From the NCBI RefSeq assembly GCF_030540775.2, contig NZ_CP141266.1:1723001-1787000 (forward strand): 64,000 bases of DNA, read 5' to 3'. The translations under genes and the position numbers were made by a program. The notes beneath the pieces were generated by a model. That model was not told the origin of the DNA, made no database searches, and saw only the letters and a list, made by a program, of their open reading frames with translations. How positions within the stretch are numbered: position 1 is the stretch's first letter; each line of letters starts with the position of its first letter. Source of the stretch: Flavivirga abyssicola (lineage in GTDB: Bacteria; Bacteroidota; Bacteroidia; Flavobacteriales; Flavobacteriaceae). This document shows positions 14,806 through 35,671 of this stretch, piece by piece.

Positions 14806-17610
14806 TTGAGACGACTCGGTTTTTTGTTTTTCAGTATCCCTCTTTGGGTATGTAGTTTTCTACACTCACAAGAACACCCTCCTATTGAAATTTTTTCACC
14901 AAAAGATTATGGTGCCGAAACTCAAAATTGGTCCATTTCTCAATCTAAAGAAAATTACATTTACGTAGCTAATAATAAAGGGCTCCTTGAATTTAATGGG
15001 GCAAATTGGCAATTATATCTATCGCCTAACGAAACCATAATAAGATCCGTTAATGTTATAGAAAATTTAATATATACAGGCAGTAATAGAGAATTTGGAT
15101 ATTGGCAACGAAATGAATTTGGACTATTATACTATACTTCATTATCAAAAAAATTAAAGATAGATTTTTTAGAAGACGAAGAATTCTGGAATATTATAAG
15201 TATAGACGATTATATATTATTTCAATCTTTAAAAAGAATCTATATTTATAACAAAACCGATACTTCCTATAGTATTATAGATTCTGAAACTATTATCTAC
15301 AAAATATTTAAAGTTGATGAAACTATTTATTACCAGAAAACCAAAGATGGTATATACAAAATCGAAAATGGCGAATCAAAATTAGTTTCAAATCACATAA
15401 TCCTTAAAGAAAATAGACTAGTAAATGTTTTTATTAAAGACGATAAACTTTTAATAGAAACAGAAAATAATGGTTTTTATATCCTAAATAATGGAATCCT
15501 TTCTAAATGGGATATCTCTGCAAACAAAAAACTATCAGAGGTTAGTGTATTCCGTAGCATTCAGTTAAAAGACAATAGTTTTATATTAGGAACCAGATCT
15601 AATGGTATTTTACATCTAACTCCAGACGGTAGCATTGATTATAATATAAACACATTTCATGGACTAAGTAATAATACCGTGCATGGGGTTTTTGAAGACG
15701 TAGAAAACAATATCTGGTTAGCCTTAGAAAATGGCATTAATTGTATAAACATTAAGTCTCCATTTAGAATTTATCCCGATGAAAAAGGGAAAATAGGAAC
15801 TATATATACGACTTCCGTTTTTAACGGTAATTTATATTTAGGAACCAATCAGGGATTATTTTATAAGCCTTTGGAGACACAAGAAAATTTCAAAGGGGTT
15901 GAAGGGGTTCAAGAAGCTGTTTGGAGTTTAACTATAATAGATAATACATTGTTTTGTGGGCACGACACAGGAACCTCTGTTATAAATAACAACATAGCTG
16001 AAAAAATTAAAGGTATACAACAAGGTACTTGGGACATAAAATCAATTAACAAAACAGATTTACTATTACAAGGTAATTATGACGGTTTATACATCCTTCA
16101 GAAAATTAATAACAAATGGGTGTTTAGAAATAAGATAGACGGTTTTGACCTATCAAGTAAATTCTTTGAGCTTTACAATAATCAAATTTTTGTAAGCCAC
16201 GAATATAAAGGTGTTTTTAAAATTGATGTAGACAAAAATTTCACAAAAGCTCTAAGCATTATAAAAGATCCAGATCTTGGAAAAGAACTAAACTCCAGCA
16301 TTACTAAATACAATAATAAACTATTATACATTTATAAAGAAGGTGTTTTAGAGTATCATACAGAAATTAATAAATTTTTAAAAGACACTGTTTTAAGTAC
16401 ACTTTTCTCAAAAGAAGATTATACTTCAGGGAGGCTAGAATTTAACAAAGAAACTAATACTTTATGGAGCTTTTCTAGAAGTAATCTTAATTATATCTCT
16501 CCAAGCAAATTAAGTAATGCCCTAAAGGTTAACAGGATCCCTTTTTCCAAATCATTGCCGCGAGGTTTAACAGGTTACGAAAACATATCCTTTCTATATA
16601 ACCAGAAGTATTTAATAGGAACCTCAACAGGTTTTGTTGTTTTAGACCTAGACAAAATATCTAATATGCCTTATGAGATTTCAATTAATTCAATCACCAA
16701 ACACAGCATCTCCAATACTTGGGAAACCGTAAATAAAAATATTAATGGAAATTTTAAAAATAAGGACAACAATATAGAGTTCTCCTTTAGTGTTGCAGAA
16801 TTTGATAAATATCTCGATACAGAGTATCAATATCAGTTAGAAGGGATGTACCCAAACTGGAGTAATTGGTCCTCCAAACCTAAGACATTATTCGAAAATT
16901 TACCTTTTGGCGATTATACATTTAATGTAAGAGCAAAGGTAGGTAATGCCCTTACTAAAAATGTAGCTTCCTATCGTTTCAATATAGAAAGACCATGGTA
17001 TCTTTCTAATATCATGATAGCAGCATATGTTATTTTTGTTTTATTGTTTTCATTAATGATGCACCATATTTACAAACGTTATTACAGAAAACAAAGAGAA
17101 GCATTACTACAAAAAACCAAACGAGAACTAGAATTAAAGGAGCTTGCAAATAGGCAACAACTCATGAGTTTTAACAATGAAAAATTAAGACAAGATATAG
17201 ACAACAAAAATCGTGAACTGGGTATTTCAACAATGAGCCTAATTAAAAAGAATGAGTTCTTGAATAGTTTAAAAAAGGAATTACAAAATGTTAATGACGT
17301 TAAAAATGTAAAACATGTTATTAAAATAATTGACAGAAATTTAAATAATACAGATGATTGGCATGTTTTTGAAGAAGCATTTAATAATGCAGATAAAGAT
17401 TTTCTAAAAAAGATCAAACAGGAGCACCCTTCGCTTACTTCTAACGATTTAAGATTATGCACATATCTTAGGTTAAACTTATCCTCAAAAGAAATCGCTC
17501 CGTTACTCAATATTTCGCCAAGAAGCGTTGAAGTAAAACGATATAGATTACGAAAAAAGATGAATCTGCAACATGAATCTAGCTTAACAGACTATATTCT
17601 AGAAATTTAA
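14806..17610 (+). CDS. propeller/Y_Y_Y/LuxR-type membrane regulator of the glucan locus
   Basis: 934 aa from a TTG start (LRRLGFLFF read as M). A signal peptide ends about residue 21. A periplasmic beta-propeller of two-component-regulator type follows (repeats such as IIRSVNVIENLIYTGSNREF and NNTVHGVFEDVENNIWLALENGI), then a Y_Y_Y domain (about 640-725), one membrane helix near 732-758 (IMIAAYVIFVLLFSLMM), a cytoplasmic coiled coil (760-860) and a C-terminal LuxR-like HTH (NLSSKEIAPLLNISPRSVEVKRYRLRKKMNL split over about 885-920). There is no kinase or receiver domain. This is a one-component transmembrane sensor, and its place 299 bp upstream of the glucan operon suggests it senses beta-glucan oligosaccharides. 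An ATG at 14796 is one base out of frame across a T6 run. Confidence 0.85.
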   Translation: MRRLGFLFFSIPLWVCSFLHSQEHPPIEIFSPKDYGAETQNWSISQSKENYIYVANNKGLLEFNGANWQLYLSPNETIIRSVNVIENLIYTGSNREFGYWQRNEFGLLYYTSLSKKLKIDFLEDEEFWNIISIDDYILFQSLKRIYIYNKTDTSYSIIDSETIIYKIFKVDETIYYQKTKDGIYKIENGESKLVSNHIILKENRLVNVFIKDDKLLIETENNGFYILNNGILSKWDISANKKLSEVSVFRSIQLKDNSFILGTRSNGILHLTPDGSIDYNINTFHGLSNNTVHGVFEDVENNIWLALENGINCINIKSPFRIYPDEKGKIGTIYTTSVFNGNLYLGTNQGLFYKPLETQENFKGVEGVQEAVWSLTIIDNTLFCGHDTGTSVINNNIAEKIKGIQQGTWDIKSINKTDLLLQGNYDGLYILQKINNKWVFRNKIDGFDLSSKFFELYNNQIFVSHEYKGVFKIDVDKNFTKALSIIKDPDLGKELNSSITKYNNKLLYIYKEGVLEYHTEINKFLKDTVLSTLFSKEDYTSGRLEFNKETNTLWSFSRSNLNYISPSKLSNALKVNRIPFSKSLPRGLTGYENISFLYNQKYLIGTSTGFVVLDLDKISNMPYEISINSITKHSISNTWETVNKNINGNFKNKDNNIEFSFSVAEFDKYLDTEYQYQLEGMYPNWSNWSSKPKTLFENLPFGDYTFNVRAKVGNALTKNVASYRFNIERPWYLSNIMIAAYVIFVLLFSLMMHHIYKRYYRKQREALLQKTKRELELKELANRQQLMSFNNEKLRQDIDNKNRELGISTMSLIKKNEFLNSLKKELQNVNDVKNVKHVIKIIDRNLNNTDDWHVFEEAFNNADKDFLKKIKQEHPSLTSNDLRLCTYLRLNLSSKEIAPLLNISPRSVEVKRYRLRKKMNLQHESSLTDYILEI

Positions 17611-17909: not shown

Positions 17910-20900
17910 ATGAAAAACAATTTTCTAAGATTAGTATTCTTCTTATTTACGGTAACTGCATTTGCACAGTCAGATAAAGTATCCGTTGTAAGTAATGATG
18001 AAGGCATGAAATTAGTTGTCAACGGAAAAGATTTCATGATTAATGGTATGAATTGGGATTACTTTCCAATTGGTACTAATTACTCCTATAGTTTGTGGAA
18101 GCAATCCGATGCTGTTATTAAAGCAGCATTAGATGCCGAAATGGGCCTATTAAAAAACATGGGGGTTAATGTAATAAGACAATACACAGGTGTTCAGCCT
18201 AAATGGATTCAATATATCTATGAAAACTATGGTATTTATACCATGCTTAATCATTCATTTGGTAGATATGGGTTAACAATCAACGGTGCTTGGGTAGCTG
18301 TGACCGATTATAGAGACCCTGCAACACAGAAGCTACTCATGTCTGAAGTTTCTCAGATGGCTGAAACATACAAAAATACTCCAGGGTTACTCCTTTTCTT
18401 ATTAGGAAATGAAAATAATTACGGACTGTTTTGGGCTGGAGCCGAGACCGAAGATTTTCCAGATGAAGAAGATAAAAAAAGAGAAGTAGGTGAAAAGCGG
18501 GGAAGACCTATGTATAAATTAATGAATGATGCCGTGCTTAAAATGAAGGCAATTGATGCTTCACATCCAGTGGCCATTTGTAACGGAGATTTATTGTTTG
18601 CTGATATCGTAGCAGAAGAATGTAAAGACGTGGATATTTATGGCGTAAATATGTATCGTGGTAAATCGTTTGGAGATGCTTTTGAACGCGTTAAAAACGA
18701 ATTGAATAAGCCTATCATGTTTACAGAGTTTGGTTCTGATGCCTTTAATGCCATTACAAATAAAGAGGACCAAAAGATGCAAGCCTTTTTTATGGTAGAA
18801 AACTGGAAGGAAATCTACCAAAATGCTGCCGGCTTAGGAAAAGCAGGAAATTCCATAGGAGGTTTTACATTTCAATTTAGTGATGGCTGGTGGAAGTTCG
18901 GGCAAACAAAAAACCTAGATATTCATGACACTAACGCATCCTGGGCCAATGGAGGCTATTACCTCGATTTAGAGCCAGGACAAAACAATATGAATGAGGA
19001 ATGGTTTGGAATTTGTGCAAAAGGACCAACTAACGAAAGAGGTTTATACGACTTATATCCACGTGCAGCATATTACGCTTTAAAGGAAGCACACAGTTTA
19101 GATCCTTATGCTAAAGATGTCACTTCAGACTTTGTTGATAATTATTTCAACAATATAGAGCTAATGGATGCGGTACTTAGAGCCAGAGGTGATAAAGCTG
19201 CGCTAGGAGCGAACAGTGCAGGAAAAATAAGATTAAGCAATTTACGTGCGGAATTTACCACATTCAGTACAGGAGGTACTTTATTAACAACCCCAGAGAC
19301 TGCAAATCCAGATGAAGAAGCATTTCCTAATCAGCTTGGTTTTGACCACATGCAATCTTATTATGTTGGTGTTGAAGGGAATCCAACCTCAAACATGAGA
19401 GCTGAAGTTAACTTCAATATTCTTGGTAATGTAGCACAAAACCCTATTAATGAGATATTTTACGAGAACGTAGGTAGGCCAATTAAAGTTACCAATACAA
19501 ACGGCGAAGAAGTTATTATTACAGATAACAACAGAGTGAGGGTGTACAATGCTAAGTTTGAATGGAACTCTAAAGTGGCAGATGTAAGAGGGTTTTACAG
19601 AACCGGCCACTACCATTGGGGGTACGAAGGCGATTTCTTTGGGTTATATCCAGAAGCTAACTACGGACCAAACTTAGATATTTACAATGGTGAGATTCTG
19701 GGAATGGAGATTGATGGAAAAGGGTCTTTAAAAGGCCTTAAAGCCGCTTTTGGACCACAATTATGGTGGGGAGCAAATCCAACGGTATTATTAAAATACA
19801 GAACTCATTTTAAGCATTGGGATATTACTGGTATTTATCATAGAGATTTAGACACTAGCCTAGAATTTGATGACAATGGACTACGATTTTTAAATGCTAA
19901 TCAGGTACAAAGTGGTGTTATTCCACCTTGGCCCACAGAACGTGCTACCGTAGTTTTAGAAAGAGACTTTGGAGCCTTTGGTATTTCATTAGGAGGTATC
20001 TGGGGAGGAAGTCCTCTTAACGGTAGTACATTTCAAGATGTAACAGGTGGTCCAGGGAGCTATGTAGTATATCAAGATAAAATAAACTCAGATGATAACT
20101 GGGGTGGAAAAGCCAAAATAACCTATGAAAAAGGACGGTTTAATTTCTATGCGCAAGCGGCATATATGGGATTGGTTGCCAATGGAGGCGCAGATGCTAC
20201 AAGAACATTTACAGGTTGGAAACTTAAAGATTCTGGAAGTGGTAACCAAACCAATATACTTTCTGGTTTCACATACAGCATTGGAGATTGGCAAATAGCA
20301 CCAAACTTCCTTTGGCAAAAACCTCTAGTAGATCCAATGCCTAATGATGTAACCGCACCAGGAAGATTAAGAAACTTTATAGACGACCCATTCGCTGTAA
20401 GAGGTAATAGAGAAACCACAGCAGGAGAATTACTCTTAACCTTCGATCCAACACCTGGATCCTGGTTTTATGAGTGGGACAATGATCGAGCGGAAGATGC
20501 AAAATTTGCTTTTAACTTAGGTTTTGTATTTAGACATCAGCCAACATCACAAGATGCGCATATTGGGTTTTTAGCAAATCGTACATTTTTTGCTTTTCCA
20601 CAGGCTGCGCCAGCACAAGACCTCTGGGAATTAAGTTCTCGTGTTGTTTCTAAAGCAAGCCCAGAATTGGGCATTATTGGAAATTTTTATGGAGGTAACG
20701 CTCAGGCTAATGGTGATAGTGACAGAACCATAGAACGCTTTGGAGGGGACATCAAAATGATATACAAAAAGTGGAAGGTAGAATATGGTTTCAAGGTTAA
20801 TGACTGGGGTCCTTTCGATTACCATCGTGATTTCAACTTGACATTCCCAATTCAAAATATGATTGATATTTCTACATCCATAGGTAAGCCTGATTGGTTT

Positions 20901-21089
20901 ATCCTTCCGGATACTAAGATTGGTATCCGTGGTACTTGGCGTTCCTTAAATGAAAATTCGCCAAGATATTCGCCTACAGCTGTTCCAGCAAATACGTTTC
21001 CGGCTATACCACCAATAAGCCCTGTTGGATTTGATGATGGAAATGAATGGGAGATTAGAACATATGTACACATCAATATTGGTAAATAA
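17910..21089 (+). CDS. clan GH-A TIM-barrel hydrolase fused to predicted outer-membrane beta-barrel
   Basis: 1059 aa from the ATG at 17910, which gives a clean signal peptide (residues 1-20, ending TVTAFAQ); an upstream ATG at 17880 would add ten polar residues. Residues 25-420 form a GH2/GH5-like barrel: LLFLLGNENN puts an acid/base Glu at 168 and IMFTEFGSD a nucleophile Glu at 273. From about 425 to the end there are many amphipathic, aromatic-rich strands (RVYNAKFEWNSKVADVRGFY, FNFYAQAAYMGLV, KVEYGFKVNDWG) ending EIRTYVHINIGK, which looks like an outer-membrane barrel. It is the first gene of the operon, 13 bp before a binding lipoprotein. It probably acts on beta-glucan at the outer membrane and might be the porin in a locus lacking SusC/D. 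The specific GH family is not certain. Confidence 0.75.
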   Translation: MKNNFLRLVFFLFTVTAFAQSDKVSVVSNDEGMKLVVNGKDFMINGMNWDYFPIGTNYSYSLWKQSDAVIKAALDAEMGLLKNMGVNVIRQYTGVQPKWIQYIYENYGIYTMLNHSFGRYGLTINGAWVAVTDYRDPATQKLLMSEVSQMAETYKNTPGLLLFLLGNENNYGLFWAGAETEDFPDEEDKKREVGEKRGRPMYKLMNDAVLKMKAIDASHPVAICNGDLLFADIVAEECKDVDIYGVNMYRGKSFGDAFERVKNELNKPIMFTEFGSDAFNAITNKEDQKMQAFFMVENWKEIYQNAAGLGKAGNSIGGFTFQFSDGWWKFGQTKNLDIHDTNASWANGGYYLDLEPGQNNMNEEWFGICAKGPTNERGLYDLYPRAAYYALKEAHSLDPYAKDVTSDFVDNYFNNIELMDAVLRARGDKAALGANSAGKIRLSNLRAEFTTFSTGGTLLTTPETANPDEEAFPNQLGFDHMQSYYVGVEGNPTSNMRAEVNFNILGNVAQNPINEIFYENVGRPIKVTNTNGEEVIITDNNRVRVYNAKFEWNSKVADVRGFYRTGHYHWGYEGDFFGLYPEANYGPNLDIYNGEILGMEIDGKGSLKGLKAAFGPQLWWGANPTVLLKYRTHFKHWDITGIYHRDLDTSLEFDDNGLRFLNANQVQSGVIPPWPTERATVVLERDFGAFGISLGGIWGGSPLNGSTFQDVTGGPGSYVVYQDKINSDDNWGGKAKITYEKGRFNFYAQAAYMGLVANGGADATRTFTGWKLKDSGSGNQTNILSGFTYSIGDWQIAPNFLWQKPLVDPMPNDVTAPGRLRNFIDDPFAVRGNRETTAGELLLTFDPTPGSWFYEWDNDRAEDAKFAFNLGFVFRHQPTSQDAHIGFLANRTFFAFPQAAPAQDLWELSSRVVSKASPELGIIGNFYGGNAQANGDSDRTIERFGGDIKMIYKKWKVEYGFKVNDWGPFDYHRDFNLTFPIQNMIDISTSIGKPDWFILPDTKIGIRGTWRSLNENSPRYSPTAVPANTFPAIPPISPVGFDDGNEWEIRTYVHINIGK

Positions 21090-21102
21090 AATAAGATTTA
21101 AG

Positions 21103-22578
21103 ATGAAAAATATAACATTTACATATACAAAGATCATATGCCTTTTAGGGTTCATGTTTACAATCGTAGTAAGTTGTGAAAGAGAGTTATCTGATGAAGC
21201 CGTATTTGCAACATTCCCAAATACAGCAGAAGTTTTTACGGACGCCCCTGTTGGTTTAGGTACTAATTTTTATTTTCCTTATATCGGATCAAAAGCCACA
21301 GCCTGGACTGTAGATGATGATGTAAGTTATGAAGGTACGGCATCCATGCGTTTTGATGTCCCAAATGCTAACGATCCTGATGGAAACTTCGCAGGAGCCA
21401 TCTTTAGAATAGATGGAGATGGGTCTGGTAGAGATTTGTCAGGTTTTGATGCCCTAACATTTTGGGCAAAGGCTTCTCAAGCAGTCACGATAGGAGAATT
21501 TGGTTTTGGAGAAGACTTTGGTGAAAATAAATACGTGACCACTAGAACAAATATAGACTTAACAACAAATTGGGTGAAATATGTTGTTCCTATCCCAGAT
21601 CCGTCCAAACTCATTCAAGAACGTGGTCTGTTAAGATACTCAGCAGGAGGTATAGGTCCTGTAGGTAGTGAAGTAGGCTATACCTTTTGGATAGATGAAG
21701 TTAAGTTTGAAAAACTTGGAACAGTTGCACAGCCACAACCTGTTATTTTAAGCGGTCAGGATGTAGAACAACAATCTTTTAACGGCAGTCAAATAGACTT
21801 GGCAGCAAGTGGCCTTACACAAACGTTTAATGCAAATGGAAGGAATGTAACAGTAAACACAGCACCTGCCTATTTCACGTTTACGTCATCAGAGCCAAGT
21901 GTTGCCAGTGTAGATGAAAAAGGCTTGGTCACAGTTAACAGTCAAGGTACGGCAAGCATAACCGCAGTTTTGGCGGGTGTTGAAGCTAAGGGATCGTTAA
22001 AAGTAACATCCAATGGTGGTTTACAACCAGCTCCAACACCAACACTACCAGAATCCAATGTGATATCGATTTTTAGTGATGCCTATACAAATATCCCGGT
22101 TGATTTTTATAACGGAAATTTTCAGGGTCAGGGCACCACAGGTGGTGTAGCTAGTTTAGGGAATGACAATATTCTCTTATATAATAATTTCGATCAAGAT
22201 TTTGGTTTTGTAACCACACAATTTGTAAACCCAACGGTAAACCTAACCAGTCAGAATAGAATACATTTTGATTTATATATCCAAGAATCAATCGACTCGG
22301 GTGATCAATTAACGGTGGAACTAGTTAATGCTGGAAGTGACGGTGTCATAGAACCTTTTGTTGATAATGGTGGTGGACTTAGTATACCTTCAAGCGAATT
22401 AACAAGTGGAACATGGATGAGCTTCGATCTATCATTGGACAATTTTACAAACCCAACAGGTGGTAATAATTTTAGCGGTGGTATTGCCAATAGAGCTCAT
22501 ATGGGTTCAATAACATTTGTCTCTGGACTTACACTTTCATCCATTATTGTCGATAACATATACTTCTACACAGAATAA
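21103..22578 (+). CDS. surface glycan-binding lipoprotein with Big_2 domain
   Basis: 491 aa from the ATG at 21103; upstream in-frame Met codons lie inside the previous gene. Lipobox FTIVVSC gives lipid Cys 25, followed by acidic ERELSDE, consistent with surface export in Bacteroidota. It has three parts: an N-terminal CBM-like beta-sandwich (about 30-215; ASMRFDVPN, FWAKASQAV, FWIDEVKFEKL), a Big_2 Ig-like domain (about 225-325; PSVASVDEKGLVTVNSQGTASITAV), and a C-terminal CBM-like module (about 335-491; ISIFSDAYTNIPVDF, ending IIVDNIYFYTE). The last module is related to the three repeats of the PKD protein three genes on. No catalytic residues are evident, so it probably binds glucan at the surface. 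Confidence 0.8.
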   Translation: MKNITFTYTKIICLLGFMFTIVVSCERELSDEAVFATFPNTAEVFTDAPVGLGTNFYFPYIGSKATAWTVDDDVSYEGTASMRFDVPNANDPDGNFAGAIFRIDGDGSGRDLSGFDALTFWAKASQAVTIGEFGFGEDFGENKYVTTRTNIDLTTNWVKYVVPIPDPSKLIQERGLLRYSAGGIGPVGSEVGYTFWIDEVKFEKLGTVAQPQPVILSGQDVEQQSFNGSQIDLAASGLTQTFNANGRNVTVNTAPAYFTFTSSEPSVASVDEKGLVTVNSQGTASITAVLAGVEAKGSLKVTSNGGLQPAPTPTLPESNVISIFSDAYTNIPVDFYNGNFQGQGTTGGVASLGNDNILLYNNFDQDFGFVTTQFVNPTVNLTSQNRIHFDLYIQESIDSGDQLTVELVNAGSDGVIEPFVDNGGGLSIPSSELTSGTWMSFDLSLDNFTNPTGGNNFSGGIANRAHMGSITFVSGLTLSSIIVDNIYFYTE

Positions 22579-22611
22579 GCTAGATACTATAAATTTTAAA
22601 AAGAAATTAAG

Positions 22612-23454
22612 ATGACTAAAAAACATACATATAAAATAAAAGAGCTATTCATTTCAGTGCTCTTGATGGTTTCCTTTTTTGTGATATCTAGCTGTGAAAC
22701 TGATGAAACACAAACTGTAGCTACGTTTACAGAACTGGTTATGGCGGATGAGTTTGACACAGATGGAGCGCCTAATTCAACCATTTGGGGGTTTGACATA
22801 GGAACAGGAGAAAACGGTTGGGGTAATAATGAATTACAATATTACACAAACCGTACAGAAAATGTTACAGTACAAAATGGTGTGCTCATTATAACGGCAA
22901 AACAAGAACAGTTTGAACAATCTTCTTATACCTCAGCAAGACTTTTAACTAAAGGAAAGTTTGAACAAACCTATGGACGTTTTGAAGCTCGTATCAGGTT
23001 GCCATATGGACAAGGTATCTGGCCTGCATTTTGGTTATTGGGAGACGATTCTAACGGTACAGAAGTTTGGCCACAAATAGGTGAAATAGATATTATGGAA
23101 TATTTAGGAAATGAACCGTCCAAGATATTTGGTACCGTTCACGGTCCTGGGTATTCTGGTGGTGAATCTATAAGTAAACCATACATATTAAACAACGATA
23201 GATTCGATACAGGTTTTCACATATTCGGTATAGAATGGGGACCTGATTATATTAATTACTACGTTGATGATGTATTATATAATCAAATAACACCCGACGA
23301 CGTTCCCGGAGAATGGGTGTTTAATCAAGGCCCTTTCTACATCATATTAAATGTAGCTGTTGGAGGCCAATTACCAGGTTCACCAAACGCAGAAACCGTA
23401 TTCCCTCAAACCATGCTTGTAGATTATGTACGTGTTTATAATAGAAGCAACTAA
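22612..23454 (+). CDS. GH16 endo-beta-1,3-glucanase (laminarinase) lipoprotein
   Basis: 280 aa. The lipobox FFVISSC (Cys 28) anchors it in a membrane, probably the outer-membrane surface. The GH16 jelly roll starts at about 40 with ELVMADEFDTDG. The catalytic motif GEIDIME puts the nucleophile at Glu158, the helper at Asp160 and the acid/base at Glu163. The extra Met between Asp and Glu is the beta-bulge form seen in laminarinases. WGNNELQYYT and HIFGIEWGPDYINYYVDD are also typical. It would cut long beta-1,3-glucan at internal sites. It lies between two glycan-binding lipoproteins in the operon. Confidence 0.95.
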   Translation: MTKKHTYKIKELFISVLLMVSFFVISSCETDETQTVATFTELVMADEFDTDGAPNSTIWGFDIGTGENGWGNNELQYYTNRTENVTVQNGVLIITAKQEQFEQSSYTSARLLTKGKFEQTYGRFEARIRLPYGQGIWPAFWLLGDDSNGTEVWPQIGEIDIMEYLGNEPSKIFGTVHGPGYSGGESISKPYILNNDRFDTGFHIFGIEWGPDYINYYVDDVLYNQITPDDVPGEWVFNQGPFYIILNVAVGGQLPGSPNAETVFPQTMLVDYVRVYNRSN

Positions 23455-23470: not shown

Positions 23471-26400
23471 ATGAAAACTATAACAAAAACATTTAAATAT
23501 ATATCCATTTTGATATTGGCATTATCCTTCAATGCATGTGAAGATGATGATGCCGTATTACCAAGAGTTGAAGCTGGTTTTAGTTATACCGTTGATATGA
23601 ATACGGGAACCGTAACCTTTATCAATATATCAGAAAACGCAAATACCTATGAATGGAATTTTGGAGATGATGACACATCTACTCTTATTAATCCAGTAAA
23701 AGTTTATACCAATGGTACTTATACTATTACACTTAAGTCTGTAAATGTTGCAGGAGCATCTGATACGTTTGAAGACGACATCGAAATAGCAATTCCGGAA
23801 GCTGTTGCATTCCCTATCTCATTCGATTCTGATGATGTGAATTATGGAGGTGATCCTTTTAGCGGTGCTTCTTTTGCAATAGTAGATAACCCAGATCCTG
23901 CAGGGTCAAATACTGATGCTTCCAAAGTTGGAGCATTAACCAATAGCGGAGCCACTTTTGAAGGTGTTGCTTTCGAGTTAGGAACTTCAATAGACCTATC
24001 TACAGAAAAAACCATAAAAATGGATTTTTGGTCAGACACTCCAATTAGCATACTACTTAAACTTGAGGTTTCAGAAAATGCTTTTACCGAAGTTACAGTT
24101 AATCATGGCGGTACAGGATGGGAAGAACTCTCTTTTAATTTTTCCGATTCAGGAACTTATCCTAAACTGGTGATTTTTGTAGATGGTCCTGGCACAACTT
24201 CAGGTACTTTTTACTTCGACAATTTAGAGCAAGTTGAAACAGATACTACTGGGGGAGCATGCACAGATACGCCTGTTGCAGCAACTGTATTCCCTGTAGA
24301 TTTTGAAGCTTGTGAATCTTTTATAGATTCATTTGCAAACGATGGAAGTATTACAACAGAGCTTTCGGGCAACCCGGATAAAACAGGTGTGAATACCTCA
24401 GATAATGTTTTAAAAGTAATCAAAGCTAACGGAACTAATAGATGGGCTGGATTTCAAAACGCATTTCCTGAAAATTTTGATGCTACAAAAACACTTAAGG
24501 TTAAAGTATACTCATCTAAAGCCAATGCTGTTATGAAATTTGAGGTAAATAGCAACCCTCAACCTGCTGGTTCTGGAAACCCCGGACCTCAATATGCAAC
24601 TATAACAGATGCTAACACGTGGACTGAAGTAGAAGTAATATTTACGGGAATACCTGGTAATAACACAGGTCTTAATCAGTTGGTTATAAAACCAGATAAT
24701 CCAGATGGTACAGACGGTACCTTAACAGATGCTGAAGAAACTTATTATTTTGATGATATTTCCTTTGGTGATGGAGGTGGTACATCTACAGAGCCAACAA
24801 CTGCAGCACCAACACCAACTCAGGATGCTGCAAATGTTAAATCAGTATTTAGTGATACCTATACAGACATAGCGGGCACTAATCTAGATACCAACTGGCA
24901 AGGCGATTTAGTTTCCGAAACGGTGGCTATTCAAGGTAATGATGCCATAAAGTATAGCAATGTGAAATTCATTGGAATGCAATTGGCTGGAGATACCGAT
25001 TTCTCTGATATGGAATTTTTACACGTCGATATTTGGACACCTGATGCTACCGTGTTAGAAATAACGCCGATAAGCCCTCCAAACGAATTACTAGTAGGCT
25101 TAGCGGGTCTAACCCAAGGTGAATGGAAAAGTTATGATATTCCTGTAACTGATTTTACAGGGGTAGATTTTACTAAAATATTACAGTTCAAAATTGATGC
25201 ACAAAAAGGTGTGAATCCAGCTGTAGTTTATATGGACAACCTGTATTTCTATAAATCAGGATCAACAGGTGGATCAGAACCAACAATGGCAGCTCCAACA
25301 CCAACTCAGGACGCTGCGAATGTTAAATCAGTATTTAGTGATACATATACCGATATAGCAGGTACTAATCTGGACACCAACTGGCAAGGCGACCTTGTTT
25401 CAGAAACGGTGGCTATTCAAGGTAACGATGCCATAAAATATAGCAATGTGAAATTCATAGGGATGCAATTGGCTGGAGATACCGATTTCTCTGATATGGA
25501 ATTTTTACATGTCGATGTTTGGACGCCTGATCTTACGGTGTTAGAAATAACTCCGATAAGCCCTCCAAACGAATTATTAGTGGGCTTACCAAATTTAACA
25601 CAAGGTGAATGGAAGAGTTATGACATTCCTGTAACCGATTTTACAGGGGTTGATTTTACTAAAATATTGCAGTTCAAAATTGATGCGCAAAAAGGTGTGA
25701 ATCCAGGTGTTGTTTATATGGATAACCTGTATTTCTATAAATCAGGAGCTGCACCTACAGAACCAACCATGGCGGCACCAACACCAACTCAGGATGCTGC
25801 AAATGTTAAATCAGTATTTAGTGATACCTATACAGACATAGCGGGCACTAATCTAGATACCAACTGGCAAGGCGATTTAGTTTCCGAAACGGTGGCTATT
25901 CAAGGTAATGATGCCATAAAGTATAGCAATGTGAAATTCATAGGAATGCAATTGGCTGGAGATACCGATTTCTCTGATATGGAATTTTTACATGTCGATA
26001 TTTGGACACCTGATGCTACCGTGTTAGAAATAACTCCGATAAGCCCTCCAAACGAATTACTAGTAGGCTTAGCAGGTCTAACCCAAGGTGAATGGAAAAG
26101 TTATGATATTCCTGTAACTGATTTTACAGGGGTAGATTTTACTAAAATATTACAGTTCAAAATTGATGCACAAAAAGGTGTGAATCCAGCTGTAGTTTTC
26201 ATGGACAATCTGTATTTCTATAAATCAGGTTCAACAGGTGGTACCGGTTGTTCTGGTTCGGCAATAGCTGCAACAGCATTTCCAGTAAATTTTGAAAGCT
26301 GTGAATCTTTCATTAGCACCTTTGCTAATGATGGAAGTATTACGACAGAGCTTTCGGCTAACCCTGCAAAAGGAGGCATAAACACTACAGACAATGTGTT

Positions 26401-26761
26401 GAAAGTCGTTAAAGCCAACGGAACGAATAGATGGGCTGGTTTCCAAAACCCTTTCCCTAGTAATTTTGATGCTACCAAAACATTTAAGTTCAAAGTGTAT
26501 TCAACAAAAGCAAATGTTGTTATGAAGTTTGAAGTGAATAGTGATCCCCAACCTCCTGGTTCTGGAAACCCAGGACCACAGTATAGAACGATAACACAGG
26601 CTAATACTTGGACTGAGGTGGAAGTTGTATTTACGGGCATCCCTGGTAATAATACCGGACTTAATCAATTGGTTGTAAAACCAGATAACCCAGACGGTAC
26701 AGATGGTACGCTTACAGATTCAGAAGAAACCTATTATTTTGATGATATAAGACTTGAATAA
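23471..26761 (+). CDS. giant PKD multi-module glycan-binding lipoprotein
   Basis: 1096 aa. Lipobox SFNAC gives Cys 23, followed by EDDD, a surface-export-like acidic run. Order: PKD domain (about 35-115, NTYEWNFGDD); CBM-like module (118-255); module A (about 261-437, CTDTPVAATVFPVDF to ETYYFDDISFG); three near-identical C modules starting at residues 441, 603 and 764 (each EPT.AAPTPTQDAANVK... to NLYFYKSG, about 161 residues); then module A' (about 924-1096), which repeats A. The symmetric A-C-C-C-A' order, with no catalytic motif, points to multivalent glucan capture at the cell surface. Its stop is followed by a terminator-like hairpin. Confidence 0.85.
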   Translation: MKTITKTFKYISILILALSFNACEDDDAVLPRVEAGFSYTVDMNTGTVTFINISENANTYEWNFGDDDTSTLINPVKVYTNGTYTITLKSVNVAGASDTFEDDIEIAIPEAVAFPISFDSDDVNYGGDPFSGASFAIVDNPDPAGSNTDASKVGALTNSGATFEGVAFELGTSIDLSTEKTIKMDFWSDTPISILLKLEVSENAFTEVTVNHGGTGWEELSFNFSDSGTYPKLVIFVDGPGTTSGTFYFDNLEQVETDTTGGACTDTPVAATVFPVDFEACESFIDSFANDGSITTELSGNPDKTGVNTSDNVLKVIKANGTNRWAGFQNAFPENFDATKTLKVKVYSSKANAVMKFEVNSNPQPAGSGNPGPQYATITDANTWTEVEVIFTGIPGNNTGLNQLVIKPDNPDGTDGTLTDAEETYYFDDISFGDGGGTSTEPTTAAPTPTQDAANVKSVFSDTYTDIAGTNLDTNWQGDLVSETVAIQGNDAIKYSNVKFIGMQLAGDTDFSDMEFLHVDIWTPDATVLEITPISPPNELLVGLAGLTQGEWKSYDIPVTDFTGVDFTKILQFKIDAQKGVNPAVVYMDNLYFYKSGSTGGSEPTMAAPTPTQDAANVKSVFSDTYTDIAGTNLDTNWQGDLVSETVAIQGNDAIKYSNVKFIGMQLAGDTDFSDMEFLHVDVWTPDLTVLEITPISPPNELLVGLPNLTQGEWKSYDIPVTDFTGVDFTKILQFKIDAQKGVNPGVVYMDNLYFYKSGAAPTEPTMAAPTPTQDAANVKSVFSDTYTDIAGTNLDTNWQGDLVSETVAIQGNDAIKYSNVKFIGMQLAGDTDFSDMEFLHVDIWTPDATVLEITPISPPNELLVGLAGLTQGEWKSYDIPVTDFTGVDFTKILQFKIDAQKGVNPAVVFMDNLYFYKSGSTGGTGCSGSAIAATAFPVNFESCESFISTFANDGSITTELSANPAKGGINTTDNVLKVVKANGTNRWAGFQNPFPSNFDATKTFKFKVYSTKANVVMKFEVNSDPQPPGSGNPGPQYRTITQANTWTEVEVVFTGIPGNNTGLNQLVVKPDNPDGTDGTLTDSEETYYFDDIRLE
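24791..26242 (+). repeat. three tandem 483-486-bp coding repeats
   Basis: Units start at 24791, 25277 and 25760 (periods 486 and 483 bp). Units 1 and 3 are almost identical in DNA over most of their length, including synonymous sites, while unit 2 differs at many third positions. This pattern suggests recent gene conversion or duplication between units 1 and 3. Confidence 0.9.
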
Positions 26762-26867: not shown

Positions 26868-29800
26868 ATGAATAGTACAGTTTTTATAGACGAACCTAAA
26901 ATTTCAAATCATATGAGTACTATAAAAGGGGACTTTGTGAGCTTTGAAAATGAAACCTATTATAAAATTTCTAATAGCGATGCGATGCGCGCTTTCTTTA
27001 TGAGCATAGTCAGCGATTCTAATCACTGGATGTTTATTTCAAGTAATGGAGGTTTAACCGCCGGAAGAAAAAATGCAGAGTTTTCATTATTTCCTTATTA
27101 TACAGATGATAAAATAACCGAATCATCTGAAATTACGGGAAGTAAGGCTATTTTTCAGATCCATAAAAATGGAAAGCTACACATTTGGGAACCATTTTCT
27201 ATACGCCAAATGGGTATTTACAAGACCCAAACAAATCTGTATAAAAATATATATGGGAATAAAATTGTTTTTGAAGAGAATAACCTTGATTTAGGCTTAA
27301 CATACAGATATCATTGGAACACTAGCAATGAATTTGGGTTTGTAAAAAAATCAACATTAATAAATAATTCTGATTTTAAAATTAATGTTAATGTTTTAGA
27401 TGGATTACAAAATATTTTACCCGCAAGCGTAACCGCCGATACACAAAGCGGTAGAAGTAATTTAGTAGATGCCTATAAAAAGAGTGAATTGCAAACAGAA
27501 GTTGGCTTAGGCATTTATGCCTTAAGTGCGGTTATTGTAGATAAGGCAGAACCAAGTGAAGCCTTAAAGGCTAATATTGTATGGTCATCTGGGCTTAAAA
27601 AACCTACTCACTTATTGTCCTCACAACAATTAGACAATTTTAGGAAGCATCAAGACATTCATCAGGAAGTTGATGTGAAAGCAGAGAAAGGAGCCTATTT
27701 TATATCAGCCGAAATAACATTAGAAGCAGGAACAGAAAAAAACTGGATGTTTGTAGCGAATGTTAATCAGTCCATTTCAGATATTGTTAAGGTTTCAAAA
27801 ATCATTGAAAATGAAAAAGATATTGCTAATCTTATTCAAAAAGATATTGATGCTGGAACTAAAAACTTAATTCAGTTAACAAGTGCTTCAGACGGATTAC
27901 AATTAACCGCAGATCCTTTAATCAACACCAGGCATTTCTCTAACACACTGTTTAATATCATGCGTGGTGGTATTTTTGATGATGGTTACAATATTGAAAA
28001 AGTTGATTTTATAAAATATATAGCCAAGGCTAATAAAACGTTCTTCAATAAAAAGAACAGTCAGTTAAAAAATTTACCCGAAGCATTCACTCTTAGTTAT
28101 TTAAAAAATCTTGCAGAACAAGATGTAGATGCTATTTTTAAGCGACTTAGTTTTGAATATTTACCATTAAAATTTAGTAGACGGCATGGTGATCCTAGTA
28201 GACCTTGGAATAAATTTTCGATAAATACACATAGCGAAATTGATGGTTCTAAGATATTAGACTACGAAGGCAACTGGCGGGATATTTTTCAAAATTGGGA
28301 AGCACTTGCACATTCATACCCAGAATTTATAGAGAGTATGATTCATAAGTTTTTAAATGCAACCACATTTGAAGGTTATAACCCATACCGTGTGACTAAG
28401 GATGGCTTCGATTGGGAGATTATTGAGGAAAACGATCCATGGTCTTATATTGGATATTGGGGCGATCATCAAATCATTTACTTACTTAAGTTTTTAGAAT
28501 TTATAGAAGACCATTTCCCTGGCAAACTTGAAGCACGCTTTGATCAGGATATCTTTGTATACGCTAATGTGCCTTATAAAATAAAAAGTTATCAGGATAC
28601 ACTCATTAACCCAAAAGACACTATTGCTTTTGACCACAAGCTAGATGCAAAAATTAATGAAGCAAAACAGAAATTAGGAGCAGACGGTGCATTGCTAAGA
28701 GATAAAAAAGATGCTATTTACAAAGTCAATTTAATTGAAAAGCTAATCACTACGGTATTAGCTAAAGTATCTAACTTTATTCCAGAAGGCGGTATTTGGT
28801 TAAACACACAACGACCTGAATGGAATGATGCTAATAATGCCTTAGTGGGCAATGGTGTATCCATGGTAACCCTTTACTATTTATATCGTTTTTTAAATTT
28901 CTTCGAAAAGATTGTTAAAAAGTCCAAAACAAAACAAATTGAAATATCTGAAGCATTAAAAACTTGCTTTGATGAAATTGTGTCAACATTAGAAACAAAT
29001 AAACACACACTTTCAGGAAACGTATCAAATAAAGATAGAAAGACTATTCTGGACGGTTTAGGTTCAGCAGGAAGTAAGTATAGAAATACTATTTATAATG
29101 ATGGATTTACAAGTAACAAATCCATTATAACTCAATCAGCAATTTTAGATTTTATAACAGTATCCAAAAACTATTTACAACATACCATTGATGCCAATAA
29201 GCGTGAAGACAATATGTTCCATGCATATAACTTAATGACGGTTGAAAATGACGAGGAAGTATCCATCTCTTATTTACCAGAAATGCTAGAAGGACAAGTA
29301 GCCGCTTTAAGCTCAGGTTATTTGTCTCCAAAAGAAGCTTTAGACTTATTAGATGGCTTAAAAAAGAGTGCGCTCTTTAGAGATGACCAATACAGTTATA
29401 TTTTATACCCAGACAAAGAATTACCTCGATTTGATAAGAAAAATAACATCCCGCCTGAAAAAGTAGAACAATCTGATTTATTAAAGCGATTAATAAAAGA
29501 CGGGAATAATCATATTATTGAAAAAGATGTCTTAGGTGGGTATCATTTTAATGGTAATTTCAATAATGCCAATAGTCTAAAAGAAGCTTTAGAAAATTTG
29601 TCTAAAGACGAATATAAATACCTTGTAAAAAAAGATACCGGGTTATTATTAGCCATTTTTGAAGCCATTTTTGATCATAAATCATTTACCGGTCGATCAG
29701 GAACATTTTTCGGCTATGAAGGTTTAGGGTCTATTTATTGGCACATGGTCTCCAAATTATTATTAGCTGTTCAGGAAAACTGCTTGTTAGCTGTAAATAC

Positions 29801-30326
29801 CAATAAAAGCGAGAAACTTATTGGGAAACTTCTAGATCATTACTATGAAATAAACGCGGGCATAGGCGTACATAAATCGCCAGAACTTTATGGGGCATTT
29901 CCAACCGACCCTTACTCGCATACACCAGCTACCAAAGGTGCACAACAACCAGGAATGACAGGTCAGGTTAAAGAAGATATTCTAAGTAGGATTGGTGAAT
30001 TAGGTGTTTTTGTGAAAGATGGTTGTATCACATTCAATCCATGTTTACTACGTAAAGAAGAATTTTTAAAAACGCCTAAAATTTTCAGCTATACAGATGT
30101 TATAAAAGAGGAATGGGAAATGATATTAGACCCAGACACGCTTTGCTTTATGTACTGCCAAGTCCCTATTACCTATAAGCTTTCAAACAAAGATAGCCTA
30201 CAAGTAGTTTTTAATAATAACAGACAATTGAACTTTGATAATTTAAGTCTTGATTCACAAATTTCCGAGTCAATATTTCAAAGAAAAGGACAGGTAAATC
30301 AAATAAATGTATTGCTAAAAAGATAA
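26868..30326 (+). CDS. GH149-type beta-1,3-oligoglucan phosphorylase
   Basis: 1152 aa with no signal peptide, so cytoplasmic. Length and layout fit GH149, the large relatives of GH94 phosphorylases that split beta-1,3-gluco-oligosaccharides with phosphate to glucose-1-phosphate. Landmarks: an N-terminal beta-sandwich with YYKISNSDAMRAFFMSIVSD (about 25-300), then an (alpha/alpha)6-like domain with SYIGYWGDHQIIYLLKFL (about 525), GGIWLNTQRPEWNDANNALVG (about 645) and GRSGTFFGYEGLGSIYWHM (about 945). PELYGAFPTDPYSHTPATKGAQQPGMTGQ near 1005 (here in part) is typical of the active-site loop region. The assignment is from memory; I cannot name the catalytic Asp with certainty. It starts the second, intracellular/periplasmic half of the operon. 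Confidence 0.85.
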   Translation: MNSTVFIDEPKISNHMSTIKGDFVSFENETYYKISNSDAMRAFFMSIVSDSNHWMFISSNGGLTAGRKNAEFSLFPYYTDDKITESSEITGSKAIFQIHKNGKLHIWEPFSIRQMGIYKTQTNLYKNIYGNKIVFEENNLDLGLTYRYHWNTSNEFGFVKKSTLINNSDFKINVNVLDGLQNILPASVTADTQSGRSNLVDAYKKSELQTEVGLGIYALSAVIVDKAEPSEALKANIVWSSGLKKPTHLLSSQQLDNFRKHQDIHQEVDVKAEKGAYFISAEITLEAGTEKNWMFVANVNQSISDIVKVSKIIENEKDIANLIQKDIDAGTKNLIQLTSASDGLQLTADPLINTRHFSNTLFNIMRGGIFDDGYNIEKVDFIKYIAKANKTFFNKKNSQLKNLPEAFTLSYLKNLAEQDVDAIFKRLSFEYLPLKFSRRHGDPSRPWNKFSINTHSEIDGSKILDYEGNWRDIFQNWEALAHSYPEFIESMIHKFLNATTFEGYNPYRVTKDGFDWEIIEENDPWSYIGYWGDHQIIYLLKFLEFIEDHFPGKLEARFDQDIFVYANVPYKIKSYQDTLINPKDTIAFDHKLDAKINEAKQKLGADGALLRDKKDAIYKVNLIEKLITTVLAKVSNFIPEGGIWLNTQRPEWNDANNALVGNGVSMVTLYYLYRFLNFFEKIVKKSKTKQIEISEALKTCFDEIVSTLETNKHTLSGNVSNKDRKTILDGLGSAGSKYRNTIYNDGFTSNKSIITQSAILDFITVSKNYLQHTIDANKREDNMFHAYNLMTVENDEEVSISYLPEMLEGQVAALSSGYLSPKEALDLLDGLKKSALFRDDQYSYILYPDKELPRFDKKNNIPPEKVEQSDLLKRLIKDGNNHIIEKDVLGGYHFNGNFNNANSLKEALENLSKDEYKYLVKKDTGLLLAIFEAIFDHKSFTGRSGTFFGYEGLGSIYWHMVSKLLLAVQENCLLAVNTNKSEKLIGKLLDHYYEINAGIGVHKSPELYGAFPTDPYSHTPATKGAQQPGMTGQVKEDILSRIGELGVFVKDGCITFNPCLLRKEEFLKTPKIFSYTDVIKEEWEMILDPDTLCFMYCQVPITYKLSNKDSLQVVFNNNRQLNFDNLSLDSQISESIFQRKGQVNQINVLLKR

Positions 30327-30336
30327 AGGCAAACCA

Positions 30337-31626
30337 ATGAAAACCAATTTAAAAAGACTCTTATTACTAACCATTTTAATTGCCACAACAGGATGTGCAA
30401 ATAAGTCTAAAAAAGCAATAAAAAAAGTGACTGAAGAAAAATATATAACTGCAGCAGATATTTTAGGAAACCCGAAATATTTAGCCATTTCATATGGAGG
30501 TTACAGACAAATATCTCGAGATATTCAACCAACTATACCTCAGCTAAAAGAAGACATGAAAATTTTAGCAGCTATGGGAATTAAAATATTACGTACTTAC
30601 AATGTACAACTGCAACAAGCCCCGAACATATTAAAAGCGATAAGAGAATTAAAAAGCGACGACCCAACTTTTGAAATGTACGTGATGTTAGGTGCCTGGA
30701 TTGATTGCCAAAATGCATGGACAGACAAAGCACCCAATCACGACATTGAAAGCGAAAACAATGCAGCCGAAATTAAAAGAGCAGTCGCCTTGGCTAAAAT
30801 ATATCCAGATATTGTAAAGATTATTGCGGTCGGAAACGAAGCTATGGTAAATTGGGCAACAAGTTACTTTGTCCGCCCCAATGTCATTTTAAAGTGGGTA
30901 ACCCATCTACAAGAATTAAAGAAATTAGGAGAGCTTCCGGAGTCTTTATGGATAACCAGTTCAGATGATTTTTCTTCTTGGGGCGGCGGCGATGCAAGCT
31001 ATCATACTAAAGACTTGGAAAAACTAATCAAGGCAGTCGATTATATTTCCATGCATACATACCCAATGCACAATACCCATTATAATCCTGAATTTTGGTT
31101 AGCTCCTGAGAGCGAATCCGGCCTTTCAGATCACGAAAAAATTGAATCGGCGATGCAACGTGCACTTAATTTTTCCAAAGCACAATACGACAGTGTTTCA
31201 AACTATGTAAAAAGTTTGGGTGTAAACAAACCCATTCATATTGGAGAAACAGGATGGGCAACCGTCTCAAATGGACACTATAGCAAAAACGGATCTAGGG
31301 CTACAGACGAATATAAATCCGGTCGTTATCATGAATTGATGAGGGATTGGACCAACAAATCCAACATCTCCTGCTTCTATTTTGAAGCTTTTGATGAACA
31401 ATGGAAAGATGCCGCTCACAAATTAGGGTCGGAAAACCACTTTGGACTCATCAATTTAAAAGGGCAAGCTAAATATGCCTTATGGGATATGGTTGATAGA
31501 GGCGTGTTCGATGGATTAACCAGAGATGGAAACCCAATAACTAAAACCTACAATGGAAACAAAGAAGCTTTAATGCAAGAGGTTTTAGTGCCTCCGACCC
31601 ATGCAGAATTTAGTGTCACACATTAA
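30337..31626 (+). CDS. GH17 beta-1,3-glucanase lipoprotein
   Basis: 429 aa. Lipobox ATTGC with Cys 20, then basic residues (ANKSKKAIKK) rather than an acidic run, so it may stay in the periplasm-facing leaflet. The GH17 TIM barrel spans about 45-390: LAISYGGYR at the first strand, VGNEAMVNW with acid/base Glu168, and HIGETGW with nucleophile Glu304. DYISMHTYPMHN and CFYFEAFDEQWKD are usual GH17 strands. It should cut or transfer beta-1,3-gluco-oligosaccharides. It lies 10 bp after the phosphorylase gene and 12 bp before the GH30 gene. Confidence 0.92.
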   Translation: MKTNLKRLLLLTILIATTGCANKSKKAIKKVTEEKYITAADILGNPKYLAISYGGYRQISRDIQPTIPQLKEDMKILAAMGIKILRTYNVQLQQAPNILKAIRELKSDDPTFEMYVMLGAWIDCQNAWTDKAPNHDIESENNAAEIKRAVALAKIYPDIVKIIAVGNEAMVNWATSYFVRPNVILKWVTHLQELKKLGELPESLWITSSDDFSSWGGGDASYHTKDLEKLIKAVDYISMHTYPMHNTHYNPEFWLAPESESGLSDHEKIESAMQRALNFSKAQYDSVSNYVKSLGVNKPIHIGETGWATVSNGHYSKNGSRATDEYKSGRYHELMRDWTNKSNISCFYFEAFDEQWKDAAHKLGSENHFGLINLKGQAKYALWDMVDRGVFDGLTRDGNPITKTYNGNKEALMQEVLVPPTHAEFSVTH

Positions 31627-34744: not shown

Positions 34745-35671
34745 ATGTCGTACAGATCAGATAAAATTATGGCCCTATCTGGCCTTAACCTAGAAAACAA
34801 AACAATAAAAGGGTTACAGAATACATTTAAAAGAGTCCTTAAAAGTGGTATGCATGGATTATGCTTTAGTCCTTATGAAGAAGGACAGTCGCCTGGAGAT
34901 CAAATAAGTGTTGATCAAATTAGGCGCCGGATGGAGATTATAAAACCATATACCAAATGGATCCGATCGTTTTCCTGCACAGACGGCAATGAATTGATTC
35001 CCATTATTGCTAAAGAGTATGGAATTAAAACCTTAGTGGGTGCATGGTTAGGTTATGATGCTGAAATAAATAAAAAGGAAATATCTGGCCTTATTAAACT
35101 GGCTAAGGAAGGCTATGTGGATATTGCAGCAGTTGGAAATGAAGTGATGTACAGGGGTGATTTAAAAGAAGATGAGCTTTTGGGTTTCATTTACCATGTA
35201 AAAAATAAAATTCCTGATACTCCTGTTGGCTACGTAGATGCTTACTACGAATTTACACAACGACCAAAAATAACAGAAGCATGCGATGTCATTTTGGCTA
35301 ATTGTTATCCTTACTGGGAAGGGTGTAACATAGAATATTCATTAATCTATATGAAGGACATGTTTAACCAAGCCGTAAAGGCAGCCAATGGTAAAAAGGT
35401 TATAATATCTGAAACCGGATGGCCTAGTCAGGGTGAAGGCTTAAATGGTGCTTTACCTTCATTTATAAACGCGATAACGTACTTTATTAATACCCAGCAA
35501 TGGTCTAAGCAAGATGACATTGATATTTTCTATTTTTCATCATTTGATGAATCGTGGAAAGTAGGAGATGAAGGAGATGTAGGTGCATTTTGGGGGTTAT
35601 GGGATAAATACGAAAAACCTAAATTCTATTCAACTCCTGTGCTTTTTAATAAAAACAAAACTTCTGTATAG
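34745..35671 (+). CDS. cytoplasmic GH17 enzyme
   Basis: 308 aa with no signal peptide or lipobox, unlike the GH17 lipoprotein upstream. TIM-barrel motifs: HGLCFSPYEEGQSP near residue 37, VGNEVMYRGD with acid/base Glu133, ISETGWPSQG with nucleophile Glu223, and IDIFYFSSFDESWK. The protein probably hydrolyses or rearranges imported beta-1,3-oligosaccharides beside the phosphorylase. It is the last gene of the operon, followed by a strong terminator. Confidence 0.92.
   Translation: MSYRSDKIMALSGLNLENKTIKGLQNTFKRVLKSGMHGLCFSPYEEGQSPGDQISVDQIRRRMEIIKPYTKWIRSFSCTDGNELIPIIAKEYGIKTLVGAWLGYDAEINKKEISGLIKLAKEGYVDIAAVGNEVMYRGDLKEDELLGFIYHVKNKIPDTPVGYVDAYYEFTQRPKITEACDVILANCYPYWEGCNIEYSLIYMKDMFNQAVKAANGKKVIISETGWPSQGEGLNGALPSFINAITYFINTQQWSKQDDIDIFYFSSFDESWKVGDEGDVGAFWGLWDKYEKPKFYSTPVLFNKNKTSV

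Follow-up and report, generated by a model that had tools for sequence, protein, structure and literature searches.

How does β-1,3-glucan cross the outer membrane of a Bacteroidota species whose glucan operon has no linked SusC/SusD importer? The question is raised by a 64,000-nucleotide stretch of the Flavivirga abyssicola genome (Flavobacteriaceae; contig NZ_CP141266.1, positions 1,723,001 to 1,787,000), here called the window and cited in its own numbering. At the head of a β-1,3-glucan operon without SusC/SusD (SusCD) stands a gene for a glycoside hydrolase (GH) joined to a predicted outer-membrane β-barrel, hereafter the fusion. The chances appear evenly balanced that the fusion is an "import and cut" device for laminarin, that is, a substrate-specific outer-membrane barrel with a glucanase at its periplasmic mouth.

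Domain Architecture of the Fusion

The two-domain protein is a conserved unit. Its parts are as follows.

17910..21089, forward strand: GH-barrel fusion gene, an open reading frame (ORF) of 1059 residues with homologues collinear across the full length
17910..17969, forward strand: signal peptide, about residues 1-20, no lipobox (read by eye from the sequence)
17970..19100, forward strand: glycoside hydrolase TIM-barrel domain, residues 21-397 (PF02836; Foldseek matches to GH158, GH157, GH72 and GH2; weak PDB profile matches)
18411..18413, forward strand: Glu168, proposed acid/base, after TIM-barrel strand 4
18726..18728, forward strand: Glu273, proposed nucleophile, on TIM-barrel strand 7
19101..19226, forward strand: helical linker, residues 398-439 (structure models)
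19227..21077, forward strand: predicted 24-stranded outer-membrane β-barrel, residues 440-1056 (models, topology statistics, Foldseek; no Pfam match)
19599..19697, forward strand: long loop after strand 5, residues 564-596, a candidate glucan-binding or constriction loop (conservation)

The GH2 TIM barrel (residues 33-283, E 1.2e-8) is the only Pfam family above its cut-off in the fusion. In Foldseek searches, the structures nearest to the enzyme domain were the GH158 endo-β-1,3-glucanases 6pal (E 4.7e-14) and 9oro, and further matches included GH157 9g5g, the β-1,3-glucanosyltransferase Gas2 (GH72; in the first 20) and GH2 enzymes. A profile built from 29 of 81 sequences matched PDB chains weakly, with the glucuronidase 6xxw best (E 0.0002), followed by GH157 (0.0024) and GH158 (0.0027). 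GH158 is therefore the best candidate family by fold, yet its profile match is weak (E about 0.003).

In the alignment to the β-glucuronidase 6xxw, Glu168 coincides with the NE motif of the acid/base and Glu273 with SEFGAD. The fourth and seventh strands of the modeled TIM barrel span residues 160-165 and 269-274, and the domain thus carries the marks of a clan-A retaining glycoside hydrolase, an Asn-Glu acid/base at strand 4 and a nucleophile Glu at strand 7. Both residues, with Asn167, Arg90, Asn247 and Tyr249, are invariant in all 101 aligned sequences (the window, the loci of 80 family-wide relatives and 20 loci from other families), which fits the first-pass annotation, made from the DNA letters, in naming Glu168 (LGNENN) and Glu273 (TEFGSD) as the catalytic pair. 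Judged by sequence and model, the enzyme domain is a (β/α)8 glycosidase of the GH2/GH158/GH157/GH72-like kind. The invariant catalytic residues and the motif alignment to 6xxw make it very likely an active retaining β-glucanase. Membership in GH2 proper was rejected, as the TIM barrel directly follows the signal peptide with no preceding sandwich domains, and so was a GH2 equivalog (best match 34 bits against a cut-off of 1284). A 1084-residue frame at genome position 419 kb was considered as a paralogue; its TIM-barrel match is weak (E 5e-5) and it was taken for a large GH2 enzyme.

AlphaFold2 models were built on 81 sequences. The whole fusion reached a predicted local distance difference test score (pLDDT) of 72.4 and a predicted template modeling score (pTM) of 0.52, and residues 398-1059 alone reached 75.1 and 0.73. 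In the model, 24 strands were counted over residues 440-1056 (about 617 residues). Their inside/outside hydropathy alternation averaged 2.42, about twice that of equal-length segments of the GH domain (1.22 ± 0.18, maximum 1.92 in 5000 draws). The 12 loops after odd strands averaged 24.5 residues and the 11 turns after even strands 5.3, with 6 of the 11 turns having 2 residues (loop-versus-turn permutation p 9e-5). Foldseek gave 308 PDB matches at E ≤ 0.001, and all 50 of those listed were outer-membrane barrels, among them BtuB, Cir, FepA and PfeA (TonB receptors included), MOMP, chitoporin, AlgE, FimD and LptD. An even number of amphipathic strands, long loops and tight turns on opposite sides and the fold matches are all features of outer-membrane barrels, and residues 440-1056 are predicted to form one. 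Soluble β-sandwiches were rejected for these residues on account of the 50 listed barrel matches. A hydrolase and a predicted transmembrane barrel on a single chain, as first proposed from the letters, are thus borne out by PF02836, the 24-strand model and the fold matches.

The barrel half had no Pfam match at E ≤ 5 in the five members scanned, and its profile matched no PDB chain at E ≤ 10. Membership in SusC was rejected, as Pfam scans gave neither a TonB-receptor nor a plug family and a SusC profile matched nothing in the window at E ≤ 1; a type Va autotransporter was rejected on the 24 modeled strands and the lack of a Pfam match at E ≤ 5.

In the 20 loci outside Flavobacteriaceae, the most conserved 20-residue segment of the whole protein is 567-586 (mean identity 0.978), above the catalytic segment 165-184 (0.957), which argues that the barrel is more than an anchor. 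In these loci the long loops are slightly more conserved than the strands (0.769 versus 0.720). Among the 101 sequences, 26 loop residues of the F/W/Y/H kind are over 90% conserved, and four loops are variable (conservation 0.54-0.69). The high conservation of particular loops suggests substrate binding or a constriction.

The two domains also look shuffled. Identity between the fusion of the window and its relatives steps up near residue 440, and, apart from the Flavivirga loci L032/L033, enzyme and barrel have different nearest relatives. The enzyme domain is closer to L049, L043 and L044 (84-88%, in a comparison of 29 of 81 rows), and the barrel is closer to L034-L041 (84-88%), whose enzyme domains are just 69-76% identical.

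In known outer-membrane barrels, the short turns are periplasmic and the long loops lie outside. Both chain ends of the barrel model are on the short-turn side and the strand number is even, and therefore the enzyme would face the periplasm. Both termini are probably periplasmic in the model, the reverse of the topology given earlier. Glucan cutting at the cell surface, which the first-pass annotation had inferred, was not borne out, since strand parity and the alternation of loops and turns place the N-terminal enzyme in the periplasm.

An Operon of the Laminarin Type without Linked SusC/SusD

Nine co-directional genes run from 17910 to 35671 with gaps of at most 106 bases. The regulator upstream and the eight genes after the fusion are listed here.

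14806..17610, forward strand: putative transcriptional regulator with a Y_Y_Y sensor part and a LuxR-type DNA-binding end (PF07495, PF00196), 299 bases upstream of the fusion
21103..22578, forward strand: putative surface glycan-binding lipoprotein with a Big_2 domain (PF02368; lipobox VVSC)
22612..23454, forward strand: GH16 lipoprotein, a putative surface endo-laminarinase (PF00722; lipobox by eye)
23471..26761, forward strand: PKD-domain lipoprotein with near-identical repeat modules, putatively glycan-binding (PF18911; repeats seen in the translation)
26868..30326, forward strand: GH149 β-1,3-glucan phosphorylase, no signal peptide seen (NF058639 GH149_beta_1_3, 1795.8 bits, cut-off 1150)
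30337..31626, forward strand: GH17 lipoprotein in the position of FbGH17A / MlGH17A (PF00332 at 26.7 bits, under the 28.2 cut-off; lipobox by eye)
31639..33132, forward strand: GH30 lipoprotein of the debranching β-1,6-glucosidase type (PF02055)
33164..34726, forward strand: MFS sugar transporter of the inner membrane (PF13347)
34745..35671, forward strand: GH17 enzyme without evident signal peptide, in the position of MlGH17B (PF00332; N-terminus)

GH16, GH17, GH30, GH149 and a transporter occur together, as in a laminarin or β-1,3-glucan cluster. The GH149 assignment is secure from its sequence. In family scans of the nine products, the fusion is the sole outer-membrane-barrel candidate and no glycosyltransferase family was found. 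Of the 80 family loci, 10 of which have little upstream sequence, 66 carry a homologue of the regulator ahead of the fusion.

Profiles made from the SusC and SusD proteins of the same genome found neither in the 64-kb window at E ≤ 1, confirming the earlier claim that the surroundings of the operon are free of both. A polysaccharide utilization locus (PUL) in the strict sense has a linked susCD pair, and the 64 kb do not hold one; in the usage of passages of PMC10108472, a locus type without susCD is a carbohydrate-active enzyme (CAZyme) cluster. According to parts of two papers, one NS4-clade variant 1 laminarin PUL has no susCD (PMC10108472), and GH149 genes also occur in CAZyme clusters without it (PMC5827456).

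The gene cluster itself is of the published Muricauda and Formosa laminarin type, as described in passages of PMC13188888 and PMC6246565. The Muricauda lutaonensis locus, conserved across Muricauda, has a LuxR-type regulator in many strains, then "GH2", GH16 and GH149 upstream, followed by GH17A (matching the position of the GH17 lipoprotein at 30337..31626), GH30_1, MFS and GH17B in the order seen here (PMC13188888, in part). That paper names a GH2 β-glycosidase, and "outer membrane" occurs nowhere in its main text. From its gene content, this Muricauda "GH2" is probably the GH-barrel fusion. More generally, the enzyme called GH2 (PMC13188888) or GH0 (PMC10108472) in passages on such clusters may be, by gene content, the fusion or the solo relatives described below. 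Laminarin PUL 2 of Formosa sp. Hel1_33_131 likewise has GH16, GH17A, GH30 and MFS-GH17B, and the three laminarin loci of this strain were most strongly expressed on laminarin; unlike here, the Formosa passages of PMC6246565 mention no barrel fusion and place the loci near TonB-dependent receptor and SusD genes. A metagenome-assembled genome titled Formosa sp. Hel1_33_131 (L083) has the fusion, then the Big_2 protein, GH16, PKD, GH149 and GH17A, with no SusCD in the examined stretch.

Three further features were seen in the window. The PKD lipoprotein (23471-26761) holds three nearly identical modules, as if recently duplicated or homogenised. An ORF of 1154 residues at 47013-50477 matches, weakly, collagen-like adhesin models alone. 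Phage families gave one weak match in the window (E 0.09).

Distribution across Bacteroidota

The GH-barrel fusion spans Bacteroidota. Some fusion match at E ≤ 0.001 is present in 99 of 299 Flavobacteriaceae genomes and is nearly full-length in 56; a contig search found 483 relatives, and the best 80 were kept as loci (L numbers; genomes carry G numbers). A search with just the barrel gave matches in 35 of 395 genomes of the phylum, 33 of them in frames of at least 1028 residues, the other two being one broken gene and one 70-residue match. A barrel with another partner was not found among these 395 genomes. The enzyme domain as query matched in 47 of the 395, and 8 of these are barrel-less at ≥55% identity, a count that omits G617 (cut by a contig end) and the broken G522.

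Outside Flavobacteriaceae, 20 of 30 matching genomes were examined, at 20 loci. A SusC or SusD match within about 8 kb was found in 0 of these 20 loci. The Big_2 protein comes next after the fusion in 19 (exception L211), and the stretches hold GH16 in 19 and GH149 in 17 cases. Ten larger unnamed ORFs, five of them in these loci, gave no TonB-receptor family when scanned, and two had no family at all. Ten outside-family genomes were tested for SusC; eight have it over the curated cut-off and two, G361 and G542, have none. PF07980 SusD is also absent from these two, and weaker TonB-receptor matches remain in both.

Several variants of the gene were observed. In one genome (L238, 7679-10827), the fusion gene is broken near residue 290 into two ORFs that overlap. 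In L235 (8378-10435), a GH domain 65% identical to that of the window is fused, by eye, to a GH16-like domain and not to a barrel. Ten solo relatives of about 340 residues (L225-L234) are 24-27% identical to the enzyme domain, and 8 of the 10 have a lipobox. Nine lie between GH17 and GH30 genes and the tenth (L225) beside GH17 and MFS. Their clusters are of the laminarin type, and the stretches contain no fusion gene; 4 of the 10 show SusD matches.

Proposed Mechanism and Points against It

For the "import and cut" device we infer the enzyme activity, the substrate, the conduction of glucan and an uptake driven by cutting. The surface lipoproteins (GH16, the Big_2 protein and the PKD repeat protein) would catch and pre-cut the glucan. 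Chains would then enter the 24-stranded barrel, guided by its conserved aromatic loops, and the N-terminal clan-A glycosidase, held in the periplasm below the pore, would cut the emerging chain and so prevent back-diffusion. The GH17 and GH30 lipoproteins would trim the pieces, the MFS carrier would import them, and GH149 and the cytoplasmic GH17 would finish the breakdown. We put forward a wider reading more tentatively: a one-polypeptide glucan importer working without SusC/SusD or TonB, in which hydrolysis and not the proton gradient makes uptake one-way, forming a phylum-wide alternative for laminarin with SusCD repeatedly gained or dropped in the family.

Several results weigh against these proposals. 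On the structural side, the models are of middling confidence and give no readable arrangement of the two domains, and the strand number may be off. Template modeling scores to solved barrels reach at most 0.38 (query length) and 0.41 (target length), and therefore the fold class looks secure and the details do not. The pattern is broken by two "inside" turns of 21 and 11 residues and by three "outside" loops of just 9, 7 and 11. The first-pass annotation had named a closed barrel with an even strand number and aromatic girdles as what to look for; the even number (24) and the barrel fold are predicted, and girdles were not seen in this middling-confidence model, where the F/W/Y fraction is 0.12-0.22 along the strands. 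Taken as classes, the long loops and the strands do not differ in conservation among the 101 sequences (0.755 versus 0.757).

On the genomic side, each of the 33 SusCs over cut-off in this genome could bring in laminarin without being linked to the operon, and unlinked laminarin import has been reported for Maribacter in passages of PMC11345257. Genome G434 has SusC and no PF07980 match, and therefore silence of PF07980 is weak proof and the test is not fully sensitive. In Flavobacteriaceae, a SusC/SusD pair is present at 23 of 70 loci (the 80 minus 10 without enough upstream sequence), and 21 of the 23 have it between the regulator gene and the fusion gene. In L064 and L108 the regulator separates SusCD from the fusion; both were counted as carrying the pair, and L076, with a 203-bit SusC-profile match on the opposite strand and no SusD, as lacking it. 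The expectation that the fusion always lies in SusCD-free loci therefore failed, and the fusion is no strict substitute for SusCD. Barrel-less orthologues, 53-76% identical by blastp, were viewed at 13 loci; L245-L248 were dropped for 5-kb stretches or short contigs (the L248 gene runs off a contig end), and of the remaining nine, five have SusCD (L235 with SusD alone in the stretch) and four do not. The operon can therefore be without both. Strict complementarity of barrel and SusCD is ruled out, as both coexist and some operons have neither.

Alternative Explanations

The best-surviving alternative, which we nonetheless consider unlikely, is that the barrel merely anchors or holds the enzyme at the membrane and conducts no glucan, which would be taken up by a SusCD encoded elsewhere or by a different TonB-dependent transporter. 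The 33 SusCs, the SusCD pairs in or beside the operon at 23 of 70 loci and the barrel-less enzyme forms speak for it. The nearest of the 33 SusCs ends about 71 kb left of the fusion gene, and the 20-kb stretches around the 33 hold no close relative of the glucan enzymes of the operon, with one GH16 match at 24% identity. Against this alternative, none of the 33 is more than 36% identical to the SusCs linked to fusion operons in other genomes. By comparison, 20 of 23 other operon-linked SusC matches are 47-74% identical to that of L036, the outliers being L040 (35%), L076 (39%) and L064 (25%). L064 carries a SusD that shares 44% identity with a SusD of the F. abyssicola genome. G361 and G542 have the operon without SusC above cut-off or PF07980 SusD, with the weaker TonB-receptor matches noted above. 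An anchor would also hardly need so large a barrel, with an aromatic loop that is nearly invariant, when the neighboring enzymes are lipid-anchored.

Also improbable is the form first proposed for this locus, in which the enzyme cuts laminarin outside the cell and the barrel imports the product. A signal peptide and a barrel share the chain, and the nearest fold match, BuGH158, is reportedly a cell-surface glycosidase according to one published study. Strand parity and the short turns make the N-terminus periplasmic instead, and the lumen should be too narrow to hold or pass a TIM barrel of about 380 residues. Acidic residues following the lipid cysteine are a surface signal, and the GH16 enzyme of the operon already has them. 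Most barrel-less orthologues have no such tag by eye, beginning with ordinary signal peptides or lipoboxes, and these N-termini, like the lipoboxes on 8 of the 10 more distant solo relatives, agree with a periplasmic enzyme.

We give similarly little weight to the fusion as an auxiliary module beside SusCD, collecting or processing branched or long laminarin beyond the reach of SusCD, with the SusCD-free operon as a secondary helper locus. SusCD between regulator and fusion at 21 of 70 loci would suit such a role, as would the history of nearby SusCD, for which both domain trees require a minimum of 16 gains or losses (FastTree, 91 rows of known state). The absence of SusCD within about 8 kb at all 20 loci outside the family and the 2 of 10 genomes without any SusC over cut-off speak against it. 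In the 21 SusCD-bearing loci between L036 and L105, the pair forms an inserted block that follows the LuxR-type regulator in every case (21 of 21). The block mainly takes one of two forms: SusC-SusD-PKD, in most cases plus an ORF of about 300 residues, or SusC-SusD plus one of about 620 residues.

Very unlikely is an exporter for glucan or for the enzyme domain, in the manner of BcsC, AlgE and autotransporters. In its favor, the fold matches include AlgE and the usher FimD, and polysaccharide exporters commonly have N-terminal periplasmic domains. Against it, the nine operon products scanned serve degradation, binding or transport and matched no glycosyltransferase family, and type Va autotransporters have 12 strands, not about 24.

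Relation to Known Systems and Implications

The "import and cut" device has partial counterparts. GH158 endo-laminarinases (6pal, 9oro) give the best fold match to the N-terminal domain, with weak profile matches as well (E about 0.003), and differ in being stand-alone proteins of about 400 residues with no barrel. The substrate-specific channels chitoporin (7vu2) and AlgE match the C-terminal half at fold level; unlike the fusion, they have fewer strands (16 and 18, respectively) and no enzyme domain, and no sequence relation was found. SusC/SusD importers share the proposed role, outer-membrane glucan entry in a Bacteroidota glycan locus, whereas the fusion has no TonB-receptor or plug family in Pfam scans. 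The MFS-GH17 fusion of Formosa (FORMB_24740), described in passages of PMC6246565, also combines transport and hydrolysis in one polypeptide of the same pathway, with an α-helical inner-membrane carrier in place of a barrel.

Herein, the gene cluster is one already known, and no description of a GH-barrel or GH-porin fusion was found in a literature search of open PubMed Central papers. For the barrel half, no matching Pfam model exists among the scans of five members. Bacteroidota glycan uptake is largely interpreted in terms of SusC/SusD, and passages of PMC6298971 propose the expression of SusC/D as a proxy for marine bacterial diet. If a conserved enzyme-channel fusion does import laminarin and needs no SusCD to do so, then some uptake of this abundant marine sugar would have been overlooked, and the fusion would allow a clean test of the idea that polymer import can be powered by hydrolysis at a pore.

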